From positions 4,340,001-4,404,000 of the forward strand of contig NZ_CP028158.1 in the NCBI RefSeq assembly GCF_003030345.1: DNA of 64,000 nucleotides. Direction: 5' to 3'. This DNA comes from Plantactinospora sp. BC1. Lineage in GTDB: Bacteria > Actinomycetota > Actinomycetes > Mycobacteriales > Micromonosporaceae. The notes under the pieces were generated by a model, which saw only the letters and a list, made by a program, of their open reading frames with translations, had not been told where the DNA came from and did not search any database. Positions 41,718 through 47,490 of the stretch are shown here, in pieces. Numbering within the stretch: position 1 is the first letter of the stretch; the number at the start of each line of letters is the position of its first letter. The position numbers were made by a program, and so were the translations under genes.

Positions 41718-41888
41718 GGTGGGTGGCTCCTCAGGCATCGCGTCAGTGTCGTTCGGTAGGAGGTTAATCGGGCCTGGTAGCCGGGGCGAGGGGTCCGTGC
41801 CACTCGCGCGACCAGACGCGCCGAATGGCCGCGTTGCGGCGCTCGCCGGTCACGCCGGCCGCCCCGTCGACGGCGGGTGCGGGTTCCT

Positions 41889-41980
41889 GCGCCCGGCGCT
41901 GGCCTGCCCGGACCGCTTCCGGCGCCCGGCGCTGGCCTGCCCGGACCGCTTCCGGCGCCCGGCGCTGGCCTGCCCTGACC
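41889..41980. repeat. 33-bp tandem repeat, 2.8 copies
   Basis: Units at 41889-41921 and 41922-41954 are identical or nearly so, and a partial third runs from 41955 to about 41980. Each begins GCGCCCGGCGCTGGCCTGCC. The array lies just upstream of the Fic-like gene, in the gap from divergent acs. It is open in the same frame (ARRWPARTASG), but start-codon evidence places the protein after it. Confidence 0.85.
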
Positions 41981-41998
41981 GGCAACTACGGTGACAGC

Positions 41999-42865: not shown

Positions 42866-43666
42866 TCAGGCGGTGGTGGCGCGGGCCCGGCGGTGCCGGC
42901 CGTACCAGGCGATGCCGATGGCGACCCCGACGCCGACCCCGATCGCCGCCGCTGCCACCGGCACGGCGGGACGCTCCCGGAGGCGGCGACCGATCGGCAC
43001 CGGGTGCCGGAACTCCAGCACCGGCCAGCCGTTCTCCACGGCGAGCTTGCGCAGCGCCCGGTCCGGGTTGACCGCGCTCGGATGGCCGACACACTCCAGC
43101 AGCGGACGGTCGCTGACCGAGTCGGAGTAGGCGTAGCAGGCGGACAGGTCGTAGCCGCGCTCCTTGGCCAGCTCGCCGACCGCGTCGACCTTGCTCGGGC
43201 CGGCAGCGTAGAACTCGACCTCGCCGCTGTACCGGCCGTCCACCACGGTCATCCGGGTAGCGATCACGTCGGCGACACCGAGGAGTTCACCGATCGGCCG
43301 GACCATCTCCTCGCCGGAGGCGGAGACGAGTACGACGTCCCGGCCGGCCGCCTGGTGCTCCTCGATCAGGGCGGCGGCCTCGGCGTACACGTAGGGGTTG
43401 ATCAGCTCGTGCAGCGTCTCGGCCACGATCTGCCGGACCTGCTCCACCGGCCAGCCCTTGCACAGGGTCGCCAGATAGTCGCGGGTACGCGCCATCGTCT
43501 GCTCGTCGGTGCCACCCAGCCGGAACATGAGCTGGGCGTACGCGGACTTGACCACGTCGCGGCGGGTGATCAGCCCGTCCCGGTAGAACGGCCGACCGAA
43601 CGCCAACGCGCTCGACTTGGCGATGACGGTCTTGTCCAGATCGAAGAAAGCGGCGCTTCGGCCCAC
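42866..43666 (-). CDS. HAD-IB family phosphatase, SerB-like, with C-terminal TM
   Basis: The HAD motifs are present: F-D-L-D-K-T (residues 8-13, motif I, DxDxT), LVSASGEE (motif II), and YAYSDSVSDRPLLECVG (motif III/IV). A C-terminal hydrophobic helix (AVPVAAAAIGVGVGVAIGIAW, about residues 235-255) would tether it to the membrane. The family includes phosphoserine phosphatase and lyso-lipid phosphatases; the substrate is not known. Length is 266 aa. It corresponds in position to Rv3661. It converges with the Fic-like gene and diverges from the 6C RNA. Confidence 0.9.
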   Translation of the reverse strand: MGRSAAFFDLDKTVIAKSSALAFGRPFYRDGLITRRDVVKSAYAQLMFRLGGTDEQTMARTRDYLATLCKGWPVEQVRQIVAETLHELINPYVYAEAAALIEEHQAAGRDVVLVSASGEEMVRPIGELLGVADVIATRMTVVDGRYSGEVEFYAAGPSKVDAVGELAKERGYDLSACYAYSDSVSDRPLLECVGHPSAVNPDRALRKLAVENGWPVLEFRHPVPIGRRLRERPAVPVAAAAIGVGVGVAIGIAWYGRHRRARATTA

Positions 43667-43853
43667 GGCGCGAAAGTCTAGCCGGATGGTCTATGGTCAG
43701 CGGGTGCGCGGGGTCACGTTTGGCACCTGCCGACCGGTTACCCCCTGATCGGCCGATCAGCCTCAGCGTGATCACGGTCACAGGGTGAAGGCGGACTTTC
43801 GCAGGGAGTGGAAGTTAACGCCACTCGACGTATACGGGTCGACTCAGGCATGC

Positions 43854-43881
43854 TTGTAGTTGCGACACACTTTCATATCCT
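43854..43881 (+). promoter_or_regulatory. promoter of the 6C-type RNA
   Basis: A -35 (TTGTAG, 43854-43859) and -10 (TATCCT, 43876-43881) are separated by 16 bp in an AT-rich patch. Transcription would begin near 43888. Confidence 0.7.
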
Positions 43882-43887
43882 CTGTGC

Positions 43888-44001
43888 TCGGTAGACCTCG
43901 GCGGTCGCACCCCCCGTGACCGCCGGGCGGGTTCGGCTCGACCCCCCCGGAGCCGAACCCCAGACGACCCCCGTCTCCCCCCGACGGGGGTCGTCGCTTT
44001 T
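43888..44001 (+). ncRNA. 6C small RNA (three stem-loops with C6-C7 loops)
   Basis: A promoter-to-terminator unit of about 114 bases holds three hairpins in a row. Stem 1 is 43899-43906 with 43918-43925 and its loop has six C. Stem 2 is 43930-43939 with 43950-43959 and its loop has seven C. Stem 3, the terminator, is 43964-43975 with 43983-43994 and its loop has six C. Runs of six or more C in successive loops are the hallmark of the actinobacterial 6C RNA motif. From memory, the M. tuberculosis counterpart (B11) also lies between the HAD gene Rv3661 and ssd Rv3660c, the same neighbourhood. It likely regulates mRNAs by pairing through its C-rich loops. Confidence 0.9.
43964..44001 (+). terminator. 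intrinsic terminator of the 6C RNA
   Basis: A perfect 12-bp stem (ACGACCCCCGTC and its complement) with a TCCCCCC loop is followed by CGCTTTT. It is the only terminator in the window with a clear U tract. Confidence 0.9.
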
Positions 44002-44312: not shown

Positions 44313-44738
44313 CTATCCGAAGTCGGCGGCGGTGATCCCGTCGGCGTGCCCCGGTGGCCACTGCACCAACTCGATCCGGTAGCCGTCCGGGTCGGTGAGC
44401 CACGAGGTCTGCGGGCCGCGGGCACCGGCGGGTCGTTCCACCGGGCCCGGCCAGAGACCAGCCCTGATCAGCGCGTCGACCGTGCCGGCGATGTCGTCGA
44501 CCTGGACGACGAGGTGGCTGAAGCCGGTGCCCACGTCCACCGGTCCGTCGGCCGGCCGGTGCACCAGCTCCAGCGTCACGAAATCCTCGTCCGGAAACTT
44601 GAGGACGGTCAGGCTGGCGCCGTCCCCGACGTCGACGCGGCCGACCGGGACGTACCCGAGCGCGGTGTAGAAGGCGAGCGACGCGGCGAGGTCCGAGACG
44701 CGGTACGCCGTGTGGAGGGTCTTCACCAGGCCAACCAT
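44313..44738 (-). CDS. VOC-superfamily (glyoxalase-like) protein
   Basis: The paired beta-alpha-beta-beta-beta modules of the vicinal-oxygen-chelate fold are visible: LHTAYRVSDLAASLAFYTALGYVPVGRV, then FVTLELVHR, GFSHLVVQVDDIAGTVDAL and LTDPDGYRIELVQWP. Metal ligands of glyoxalase I (H near residue 8, E near 56, H near 76, E near 125) are all present, so lactoylglutathione lyase or a mycothiol-linked version is plausible. The start at 44738 (ATG) gives 141 aa; no strong SD is seen. Confidence 0.85.
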   Translation of the reverse strand: MVGLVKTLHTAYRVSDLAASLAFYTALGYVPVGRVDVGDGASLTVLKFPDEDFVTLELVHRPADGPVDVGTGFSHLVVQVDDIAGTVDALIRAGLWPGPVERPAGARGPQTSWLTDPDGYRIELVQWPPGHADGITAADFG

Positions 44739-44827
44739 ACGAGGGCGGGGCCGATACGGCTCGCCTCCGGCCGGGCGTCCCGGTCGGCCGCCGTCGACGT
44801 CCGGCGATGCGTCCGCACCCCGGTGGG

Positions 44828-45880
44828 CTACTCGTGGTGCAGGGCCTGGGCCAGCGTCGCCGCGGCCTGGGCGGTGACCGCCTGCGCGGCCTGGGTGGTG
44901 GCCAGCGAGTCCAGCATCGCCATGTCGTGGATGATGCCCTGGTAGCGCACCTGGGTCACCGGTACGCCGGCCCGACGCAGCTTTGCCGCGTACGCCTCGG
45001 CCTCGTCGCGCAGCACGTCCGCCTCGTTGGTGGTGATCAGGGTGGGCGGCATGCCCCGGAGCTGCTCCGGGCCGGCCCGCAGCGGTGACGCCATCGGGTC
45101 GGACCGCTCGGCCCGGTCCGGCAGGTACTGGTCCCAGAACCACATCATCTGCTCCCGGGACAGGTAGTAACCGCTGCCGAACTCCTGATAGGACGCGGTG
45201 TCGAAGTCGGCGTCGGTGACCGGATAGAGCAGTACCTGCCGGGCGAAGCGCGGCCCGTCGCGCCGGCTGGTCAGCATCGTCACCACCGTCGCCAGGTTGC
45301 CGCCCACCGAGTCGCCGGCGATGGCGATCCGGGTCGGGTCCAGGCCGTAGTCGTCGCCCTGGCTGGCCAACCACTGCGCCACCGCGTAACACTCCTCGAT
45401 CGCGATCGGATACCGCGCCTCCGGCGCCCGGCTGTACTCCGGGAAGACGATCGCCGAGTTGGACCGCACCGCGAGTTCGCGGATCAGCCGGTCGTGGGTT
45501 AGGGAGTCGCCGAAGACCCAGCCCGCGCCGTGGATGTAGAGCACCGCCGGCAGCATGCCGCCGACCCCGCGCGGCCGCATCATCTCCTCGGCGGCGGCGC
45601 GGAGGCGGTCGCCGAGCCCTCCACCCGGGCTGCCGAGCCGGCCGGCGCCCCGCGGCTTGACGATCCGCACCGGTACCTGCCCGGTGGGGCCGCCGGGCAC
45701 CATGATGTCCTCGATGTCGACCTCCGGGCGGGGGATGCTGCCCGACTGCATCTCGACGAGCTTCGCCCGCCCCTGCTCCGGGCCGAGCTGGAACGGATAC
45801 GGCGGGTTGGCCGTCGCCCGGACCACCTCCTGCGCGGCCGGTTCCAGCACCACCGAGGTCATGCGCACGGACTGCGCCAT
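44828..45880 (-). CDS. HSL-type alpha/beta hydrolase (esterase/lipase)
   Basis: The hormone-sensitive-lipase signature is HGAGW (residues 117-121, an HGGG variant) and the nucleophile is S191 in GDSVGG. Asp288 (EADVL) and His318 complete the triad. The 350-aa length is normal. There is no signal peptide, so it is probably cytoplasmic and acts on short-chain esters. The ATG at 45880 has GAGGGAG eight bases upstream; the longer open frame toward 46111 is unlikely. It faces the Tad operon head to head. Confidence 0.9.
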   Translation of the reverse strand: MAQSVRMTSVVLEPAAQEVVRATANPPYPFQLGPEQGRAKLVEMQSGSIPRPEVDIEDIMVPGGPTGQVPVRIVKPRGAGRLGSPGGGLGDRLRAAAEEMMRPRGVGGMLPAVLYIHGAGWVFGDSLTHDRLIRELAVRSNSAIVFPEYSRAPEARYPIAIEECYAVAQWLASQGDDYGLDPTRIAIAGDSVGGNLATVVTMLTSRRDGPRFARQVLLYPVTDADFDTASYQEFGSGYYLSREQMMWFWDQYLPDRAERSDPMASPLRAGPEQLRGMPPTLITTNEADVLRDEAEAYAAKLRRAGVPVTQVRYQGIIHDMAMLDSLATTQAAQAVTAQAAATLAQALHHE

Positions 45881-46210
45881 CACGGCTCCCTCTCCCGATC
45901 TGCCCGGTTGCGTCGCGCGGTAGCGACCCTCGCGCGGCTCGGGTACCCCAGCCGGAGGCGAATATGGCCTGGTCGCCGCCGGCCGACCAAACCCCTTCGG
46001 GTACGCGGGCAGCCGCTCGTACCCGCTGTCGGGATCGCCGCTGAAGCCCTGGTGCGCATACCAGATCCATCGACTCGACGGGCGTTGTCCACAGCCACCC
46101 CGGTTATCCACAGCCCGGATTCCGGTGCCGGCAGCGGAGGTTTCGGGACGCCAGGGTGTGGCGGTAACCGGACCGCCCGTTGGAGCCGGATCCCACCGCT
46201 GGAGGACGTG
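45881..46210. other. divergent region upstream of the tad operon with two DnaA-box-like sites
   Basis: TTGTCCACA (46085-46093) and TTATCCACA (46104-46112) lie in the same orientation, 19 bp start to start, about 100 bases before ssd. Both match actinobacterial DnaA boxes. They could mark DnaA control of the pilus operon. No gene is supported in these 330 bases. Confidence 0.65.
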
Positions 46211-47326
46211 ATGCCACCGCGTACCCCGGTCCGCCCCGGACCGCGCCTGCCCCTGGTCGTGACCTCGGACAACGAGCTACTTGACGAGCTGCTCCGGCTT
46301 GCGGCGGCGGGTGGCGGCGAGGTGGAGGTGGCCGCCGAACCGGCGTCGGCCCGGTCCCGATGGGCCGCCGCGCCGCTGGTGCTGATCGGCACCGACCAGG
46401 CGCAGGCCTGCCTGCGGGCGAGGCTGCCCAGGCGACCGCGCGTGATCCTGGTCGGCCGCTCGGGGGAGGAGGACGGCGGCTGGGAGGTCGCCGGACTGCT
46501 CGGTGCCGAACACGTCGCCGTACTGCCGGCGGCCGAGCCCTGGCTCGTCGACCGGTTCGGCGAGTGCGTCACCGGTCGGGGCGGTGCGGTGGGTGGCCCG
46601 GCCCGGATCGTCGCGGTGATCGGCGGGCGCGGCGGGGCCGGCGCGAGCGTACTGGCCGGCGGGCTCGCCATCACGGCGGCCCGGTGCGGCCTGCGTACGC
46701 TGCTGGTCGACGCCGACCCGCTCGGTGGCGGCCTCGACCTGGTCCTCGGCTGGGAACAGTTGGAGGGGCTGCGCTGGCCCGCGCTCACCGAGGCGGACGG
46801 CCGGGTCGACGCGCCCGCGCTGGTCCGGGCGCTGCCCAGCCGGGGTGACCTGGTGATGCTCTCCTGGGATCGCGGCGATCTGCTGGCGCTGCCGGTCGAG
46901 GCGATGGCGGCCACCATGGACGCCGGCCGGCGCGGCCGGGACCTCGTCGTCGTCGACCTGCCCCGGCAGCTCGACGACGCGGCGGTGATCGCACTCCAGG
47001 CGGCCGACCAGGCGTTCGTGCTGGTCCCCGCCGAGTTGCGGGCGACCGCTGCGGCGGCCCGGGTGGTCGCGGTCGCGGGGCTGCACTGCGCCAACCTCTC
47101 GGTCATCGTGCGCGGTCCCGCCCCGGGCCGGCTCAAGGCCCGCGAGGTGGCCCGGGCGCTCGACCTCCCGCTGGTCGGCACGCTGCGGCCCGAGCCGGGA
47201 CTCTGCCGAAATCTGGAACGCGGCGAGGCCCCGGCGGCGGCCGGACGCGGTCCGCTCGCGGCGCTCTGCCAGCGCATCATCACCGACCTCACCGGTGCGG
47301 CCGGCGTTCCGGTGGAGGCGCGATGA
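46211..47326 (+). CDS. ssd: Ssd/CpaE-like septum-site and pilus ATPase-like protein
   Basis: The protein has an N-terminal receiver-like part and a ParA/MinD-type domain from about residue 130, with VIGGRGGAGASVLAGGLAITAARCGLRTLLVDADPLGGGLDLVL and DLVVVDLPRQLDD. The Walker-A loop reads GGRGGAGAS, without the usual lysines, so ATP hydrolysis may be weak or absent. In this position it corresponds to M. tuberculosis Rv3660c (ssd) and to CpaE of Tad systems. GGAGG at 46201-46205 precedes the ATG. Length is 371 aa. Confidence 0.9.
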   Translation: MPPRTPVRPGPRLPLVVTSDNELLDELLRLAAAGGGEVEVAAEPASARSRWAAAPLVLIGTDQAQACLRARLPRRPRVILVGRSGEEDGGWEVAGLLGAEHVAVLPAAEPWLVDRFGECVTGRGGAVGGPARIVAVIGGRGGAGASVLAGGLAITAARCGLRTLLVDADPLGGGLDLVLGWEQLEGLRWPALTEADGRVDAPALVRALPSRGDLVMLSWDRGDLLALPVEAMAATMDAGRRGRDLVVVDLPRQLDDAAVIALQAADQAFVLVPAELRATAAAARVVAVAGLHCANLSVIVRGPAPGRLKAREVARALDLPLVGTLRPEPGLCRNLERGEAPAAAGRGPLAALCQRIITDLTGAAGVPVEAR

Positions 47327-47490
47327 GCATCCGGAAGCGTGCCGTCCGCCCGCACACGACTCGGAGCCGGGCTGCCCGCCTTTACGTGACTCGGAGCCGG
47401 GCTGCCCGTCCTTACGCGGCTCAGAGGCGGGCAGCCTGTCCCTACCCGGCTCAAAGGGGTGCCGCCCGCACCGAGGCGGCCCGGCCGTGA
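47323..47490 (+). CDS. small basic repeat peptide between ssd and cpaF (55 aa, speculative)
   Basis: ATG at 47323 overlaps the ssd TGA (ATGA) and follows a GGAGG. The frame closes with a TGA at 47488-47490 that overlaps the cpaF GTG (GTGA). The peptide, MSIRKRAVRPHT then four TRSRAARxY-like units, comes from a 30-bp repeat and is very basic (about one third Arg/Lys). The double coupling and SD favour translation; the repeat origin argues for recent birth. Confidence 0.4.
   Translation: MSIRKRAVRPHTTRSRAARLYVTRSRAARPYAAQRRAACPYPAQRGAARTEAARP
47357..47457. repeat. 30-bp tandem repeat, about 3.4 copies, between ssd and cpaF
   Basis: Units start at 47357, 47387, 47417 and 47447 (partial), built on ACTCGGAGCCGGGCTGCCCG. 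The period is divisible by three, so copy-number changes would lengthen the small peptide without breaking its frame or the coupling to cpaF. Confidence 0.88.

Follow-up and report, generated by a model that had tools for sequence, protein, structure and literature searches.

The locus studied here raises the question of which of its three consecutive C-rich hairpins is the unusual one, how widely that hairpin is shared, and what it may contribute to a small RNA of the 6C type. The 6C motif is defined as a pair of adjacent stem-loops whose loops each contain some six C or more (PMC8388888). The locus lies in a window of 64,000 nucleotides from Plantactinospora sp. BC1, the whole stretch of DNA that was analysed.

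The 6C RNA and its neighbourhood

The initial annotation described a 6C-type RNA with three consecutive stem-loops whose loops hold six, seven and six C, followed by CGCTTTT. Exactly this arrangement is present in the sequence, with the following features and neighbours:

43897..43927, + strand: hairpin 1, loop ACCCCCC (C6), 12 bp; additional C-loop at the 5' end, not covered by the Rfam 6C model
43929..43960, + strand: hairpin 2, loop GACCCCCCCG (C7), 11 bp; first hairpin of the Rfam 6C model
43963..43995, + strand: hairpin 3, loop TCCCCCC (C6), 13 bp; terminator stem, corresponding to the second hairpin in the Rfam 6C model
43996..44001, + strand: terminator tail GCTTTT, directly after hairpin 3
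42866..43666, - strand: HAD-IB family hydrolase, divergent neighbour (TIGR01490, 200.1 bits, cut-off 98.3)
44313-46111, - strand: glyoxalase-type and lipase-type ORFs, between the RNA and Ssd
46259..47290, + strand: Ssd (septum site-determining protein) region, residues 244-587, of the ORF at 45530-47326 (TIGR03815, 392.7 bits, cut-off 154.45)

The Rfam 6C covariance model (RF01066) matched 43927-43999 along its full length (model positions 1-75 of 75) with 68.8 bits, over the cut-off of 47, in agreement with the annotated type. This was the sole Rfam match over cut-off in the window and the single 6C match in the genome. Matches to Scr3202, Pseudomon-1 and ASdes (E 0.34-0.56) were all under cut-off and were taken as chance. 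Ms1, an RNA whose gene is reported close to 6C in mycobacteria (PMC6582537), had no model match between 38000 and 52000 when E values of up to 0.5 were admitted; 6C alone was found there.

The initial annotation had regarded the C-rich terminator loop as the addition to the motif. That part had to be revised. RF01066 covers hairpins 2 and 3, and the terminator is therefore the second hairpin of the model; a C-rich terminator loop is standard, as in Mycobacterium marinum B11, which has three stem-loops, two of them C-rich, with the C-rich loop-3 as terminator (PMC12395582). The extra element is hairpin 1. Hairpins 2 (C7) and 3 (C6) make up the two neighbouring stem-loops of the definition, and a description restricted to two C-loops does not fit the RNA, which carries a third C-loop hairpin at 43897-43927. 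Membership of 6C is kept because this hairpin is an addition outside the model. The RNA is a 6C member by score, two-hairpin core and neighbourhood, and a three-C-loop variant outside the description given by the Rfam model. A third C-loop in 6C is nowhere described in the part of the literature searched, which did not cover Mai 2019, Weinberg 2007 and Pahlke.

Folding of the 114-nt stretch proposed initially gave -74.4 kcal/mol, compared with -49.9 ± 3.8 for shuffled sequences (z -6.5; 0 of 200 as low), and the bases of the C-runs had an unpaired probability of 0.99-1.0 in the folding ensemble. Scanning both strands of the whole 64-kb window for C-loop hairpins resulted in seven matches, three of which are the neighbouring hairpins 1-3.

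The RNA had been placed between a HAD phosphatase gene and ssd. The HAD gene is indeed adjacent and divergent, and Ssd follows downstream on the RNA's side, but the glyoxalase-type and lipase-type ORFs intervene. Since a protein similar to the Ssd of the window was found within the 3-kb flanks at 72 of 80 HAD loci, the setting is old. The B11/6C gene of M. tuberculosis presumably also adjoins a HAD gene and ssd; the neighbourhood was compared here on HAD loci of other actinobacteria. Two short tandem repeats of about three copies each are also present in the region, at 41884-41981 (33 bases) and 47346-47468 (30 bases).

Likely promoter, leader and predicted transcript

Comparison of the sequences upstream of hairpin 1 pointed to three further features:

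43825..43854, + strand: likely promoter with TCGACG (43825-43830), an 18-nt spacer and CATGCT (43849-43854); conserved pattern upstream
43861..44001, + strand: predicted transcript of about 141 nt; start inferred 7 nt past the -10 box, end from the terminator
43863..43890, + strand: 5' leader holding a conserved block and, tentatively, a weak hairpin; contains the -10 box of the initial annotation

The pattern TCGAC...C[AT][TG]NCT, with spacer lengths of 17 or 18, was observed in 80 of 91 distinct upstreams against a background of 22 matches in 617,376 bases, counts to be read with the pattern having been written after the sequences were read and with related upstreams not being independent. 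Among the 11 upstreams that lack it, several carry a closely similar sequence, such as GGCAAACT. The distance from the pattern to hairpin 1 (to hairpin 2 for L154 and L155, two of the 91 upstreams) varies between 12 and 94 nt, yet the spacer is always 17 or 18, and for this reason the pattern is taken as the likely promoter. From the two conserved boxes, the RNA would be expected to start near 43861 and to be about 141 nt long instead of 114.

The promoter proposed initially, TTGTAG-16-TATCCT, had been thought to drive an RNA of about 114 nt from a start near 43888. Its letters are present at 43854-43881. A promoter of this type was found at most 40 nt from hairpin 1 in only 4 of the 91 distinct upstreams, all four from the genus of the window, and it was rejected together with the start and length that rest on it; the conserved promoter lies about 27 nt further upstream.

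Within the leader, the block CGAY-N4..6-YTCANNT (43863-43878) was found in 54 of the 91 upstreams (background 10 in 617,376 bases) and may represent a weak hairpin in the RNA or else a site in the DNA. In a crossed-flank test, which supports it, the leader hairpin scored 10.55 within sequences against 9.31 ± 0.34 (0 of 500 as high), with kinship uncontrolled. The mean folding z was -0.34 over 73 leaders, and 13 of 51 anchored leaders reach just two pairs. A further hairpin in the 5' leader, convincing by eye at some loci, is tentatively proposed.

Conservation and loss of the C-rich loops

The 6C model scored over cut-off in all seven genomes of the window's genus. In a sample of 300 genomes of its family, the Micromonosporaceae, the model was matched in 273 at E <= 0.1 and in 257 over cut-off. 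The sample comprises 44 genera, and a complete 6C locus was obtained for 37 of them, with one to seven genomes examined per genus. A three-hairpin model was used to extract the loops from two sets, one of 73 loci that belong almost entirely to the family and one of 91 other loci, and a loop was scored as C-rich if it contained CCCC. The best-scoring loci of the family search (L010-L039) are biased for that reason and were excluded from the genus count. Of the 29 named loci L040-L068, 21 were given to the three-hairpin model; the remaining eight all show three C-loops.

Position 1 was C-rich in 36 of the 37 genera. All three loops were C-rich in 30, and the other seven had lost one loop and kept two. 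The C-run of the terminator loop was lost in five (g10, g18, g20, g39 and g42), in which positions 1 and 2 retain theirs; that of loop 2 was lost in g31; and that of loop 1 was lost in the first genome examined of g24, two further genomes of which have all three. Three genomes of g5 differed among themselves, one having all three C-loops, one loops 1 and 2, and one loops 1 and 3. Three C-loops were present at named loci of Micromonospora, Salinispora, Actinoplanes, Paractinoplanes, Phytohabitans, Dactylosporangium, Catellatospora, Rugosimonospora, Virgisporangium and Stackebrandtia, and the Hamadaea locus has C-loops 1 and 2 only. A strict need for two C-loops was considered and found not significant, the losses being too few: seven genera with one loss and none with two is close to the expectation for independent losses, so such a need is unproven.

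Seven genera (g3, g6, g12, g14, g15, g26 and g38) stand outside the count of 37. In g3 and g26 a contig end truncates the locus, in g3 just past a hairpin 1 bearing the C-run. No 6C was found beside the HAD gene in six of six g12 genomes examined, nor in the single genomes of g14 and g15, an apparent loss from the HAD locus in these three genera. The absence of a copy at that locus from all six g12 genomes indicates that the RNA is dispensable in g12.

Covariation was studied in an alignment of 66 of 84 distinct regions. Those dropped were 15 similar regions and L136, L154 and L155, with divergent or lost loops; L062 and L132 did not pass the cluster filter and are absent. Among the regions kept, 98.9% of the 791 cells of the hairpin 1 stem were paired, and pairing fell to 27-62% when the partner column was slid by 1-3. 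Both sides had changed in 22 cells compared with 4.2 in shuffles, a comparison that related sequences may inflate, and the changes include C-G to U-A (nine sequences) and G-C to A-U (six sequences). Double changes were seen at four pairs of hairpin 1, a number reached in 80 of 500 shuffles and thus within the range of chance, at eight pairs of hairpin 2 and at nine of hairpin 3. On this comparative evidence, hairpin 1 is a conserved RNA element whose stem is held by covariation. Compared with RF01066, the whole two-hairpin model of which is matched by hairpins 2 and 3, the present RNA is preceded by a covarying third C-loop hairpin.

Outside the family, 40 loci from eleven further families of the order were read, and 17 of them have three C-loops. 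The 40 were chosen across families from 133 matching non-family genomes, mostly for their better scores; this choice favours three-loop forms, and 17 of 40 is therefore no frequency. The three-C-loop loci were 8 of 8 in family f4, 3 of 3 in f5, 4 of 4 in f13, 1 of 1 in f11 and 1 of 5 in f10; none was found among the 19 loci from f7, f8, f9, f12, f14 and f15. In one f11 genome (L209), the three C-loop hairpins are followed by yet another, whose loop is CCCCCT. Among 51 named non-family loci, including those of Streptomyces and Saccharothrix, no position-1 C-loop was observed at the 41 that were matched; the ten unmatched loci include all seven of Blastococcus and Geodermatophilus. Several two-C-loop loci, for example of Saccharothrix and Prescottella, seem by eye and in single-sequence folds to keep a 5' hairpin with a different loop, so that the variable trait, whether gained or lost, would be the C-richness of the 5' loop. 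This is consistent with the three stem-loops of M. marinum B11 (PMC12395582) and with the 6C RNA of M. mucogenicum, which has three helices and two C-rich loops (PMC6582537).

Probable mode of action of the three C-loops

In M. abscessus, B11 base-pairs with a run of six G at the ribosome-binding site of eccB4 and thereby represses it; one C-loop, whichever of the two, is enough (PMC10470900). B11 of M. marinum represses via its C-rich loop-3, as established with compensatory changes; loop-3 is essential and loop-2 dispensable (PMC12395582), so that the loops are not simply equal. The two studies thus differ on loop interchangeability. The present RNA resembles mycobacterial B11 in having three stem-loops, a C-rich loop 2 and a C-rich terminator loop 3. 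It differs from that of M. marinum in loop 1, which is ACCCCCC here and not C-rich there (PMC12395582), and the terminator loop that is essential in M. marinum has lost its C-run in several genera of the Micromonosporaceae. The Streptomyces loci read likewise have two C-rich hairpins beside the HAD gene, but no position-1 C-loop was seen at any matched Streptomyces locus. The 6C RNA of M. tuberculosis is said, in the title of Mai 2019, to act without RNA chaperones. In S. coelicolor the 6C RNA is named scr3558 (PMC8539372). Three C-rich apical loops are also found on the three stems of Xanthomonas sX13, which represses mRNAs with G-rich motifs and for which Hfq is dispensable (PMC3771888). sX13 belongs to another bacterial lineage and to the polA locus, and the likeness noted is in form and way of working.

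From the sequence, predicted structure, covariation, conservation and conserved promoter sequence, which are shown here, we infer transcription, target pairing, repression and interchangeability of the loops. The RNA is probably a trans-acting sRNA of the 6C/B11 type, the three C-loops of which pair with G-tracts at or near ribosome-binding sites and block translation. It would be transcribed as a short gene of its own from TCGACG-N18-CATGCT and end at hairpin 3, presenting three unpaired C-runs on stiff stems. Each C-loop on its own would be able to bind such a G-tract in a target mRNA and so prevent its translation. The position of the 5' hairpin, with a loop that is not C-rich in mycobacterial B11, would here provide a third C-loop. 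The C-loops would be partly interchangeable, allowing a lineage to lose one and keep two. The genera without a terminator C-run that retain loops 1 and 2 suggest, by comparison, that loop 1 can substitute for the lost terminator C-loop.

A more far-reaching version, put forward tentatively, is that of a variable-valency array, in which each of positions 1-3 can hold or lose its C-run as long as at least two are kept. Several genera would have dispensed with the terminator seed because its role had passed to the 5' loop, and three loops would widen the range of targets or hold two or three mRNAs at once.

It is rather unlikely that hairpin 1 serves solely to cap the 5' end or to confer stability, in the manner of the non-C stem-loop 1 in mycobacterial B11, with an incidental C-run and with regulation via hairpins 2 and 3. 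Many two-C-loop relatives do have a 5' hairpin with another loop, and M. marinum B11 has only two C-rich loops among its three stem-loops (PMC12395582). However, the position-1 C-run is retained in nearly all genera counted, and the five genera without a terminator C-run are still C-rich at positions 1 and 2. The initial view, a standard two-loop RNA started near 43888 from TTGTAG-16-TATCCT and novel for its C-rich terminator loop, is very improbable: both hexamers are there, but such a promoter stands near hairpin 1 in only 4 of the 91 upstreams, and C-richness of the terminator loop is the norm in 6C/B11. Still less credible is that the C-runs act as a decoy, binding a protein specific for such runs, or that the matching G-runs of the template DNA strand slow the polymerase, for although the loops are C-rich whatever the remaining sequence, stem changes on both sides preserve pairing and point to RNA structure, and direct mRNA pairing has been demonstrated in the mycobacterial homologue (PMC10470900, PMC12395582).

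On the preferred reading, repression of translation by pairing of the C-loops, the new element is the extra C-rich 5' hairpin that, as judged from the sequences compared, is usual in the family and raises the number of loops that could bind mRNA from the customary two to three. The public 6C model omits this hairpin, which is conserved through most sampled genera of a large actinobacterial family, and 6C genes annotated there therefore begin too late, without one possible target-binding loop. The natural losses of loop 1, 2 or 3 offer a ready comparison for the role of each C-loop, a point on which the two mycobacterial studies disagree.
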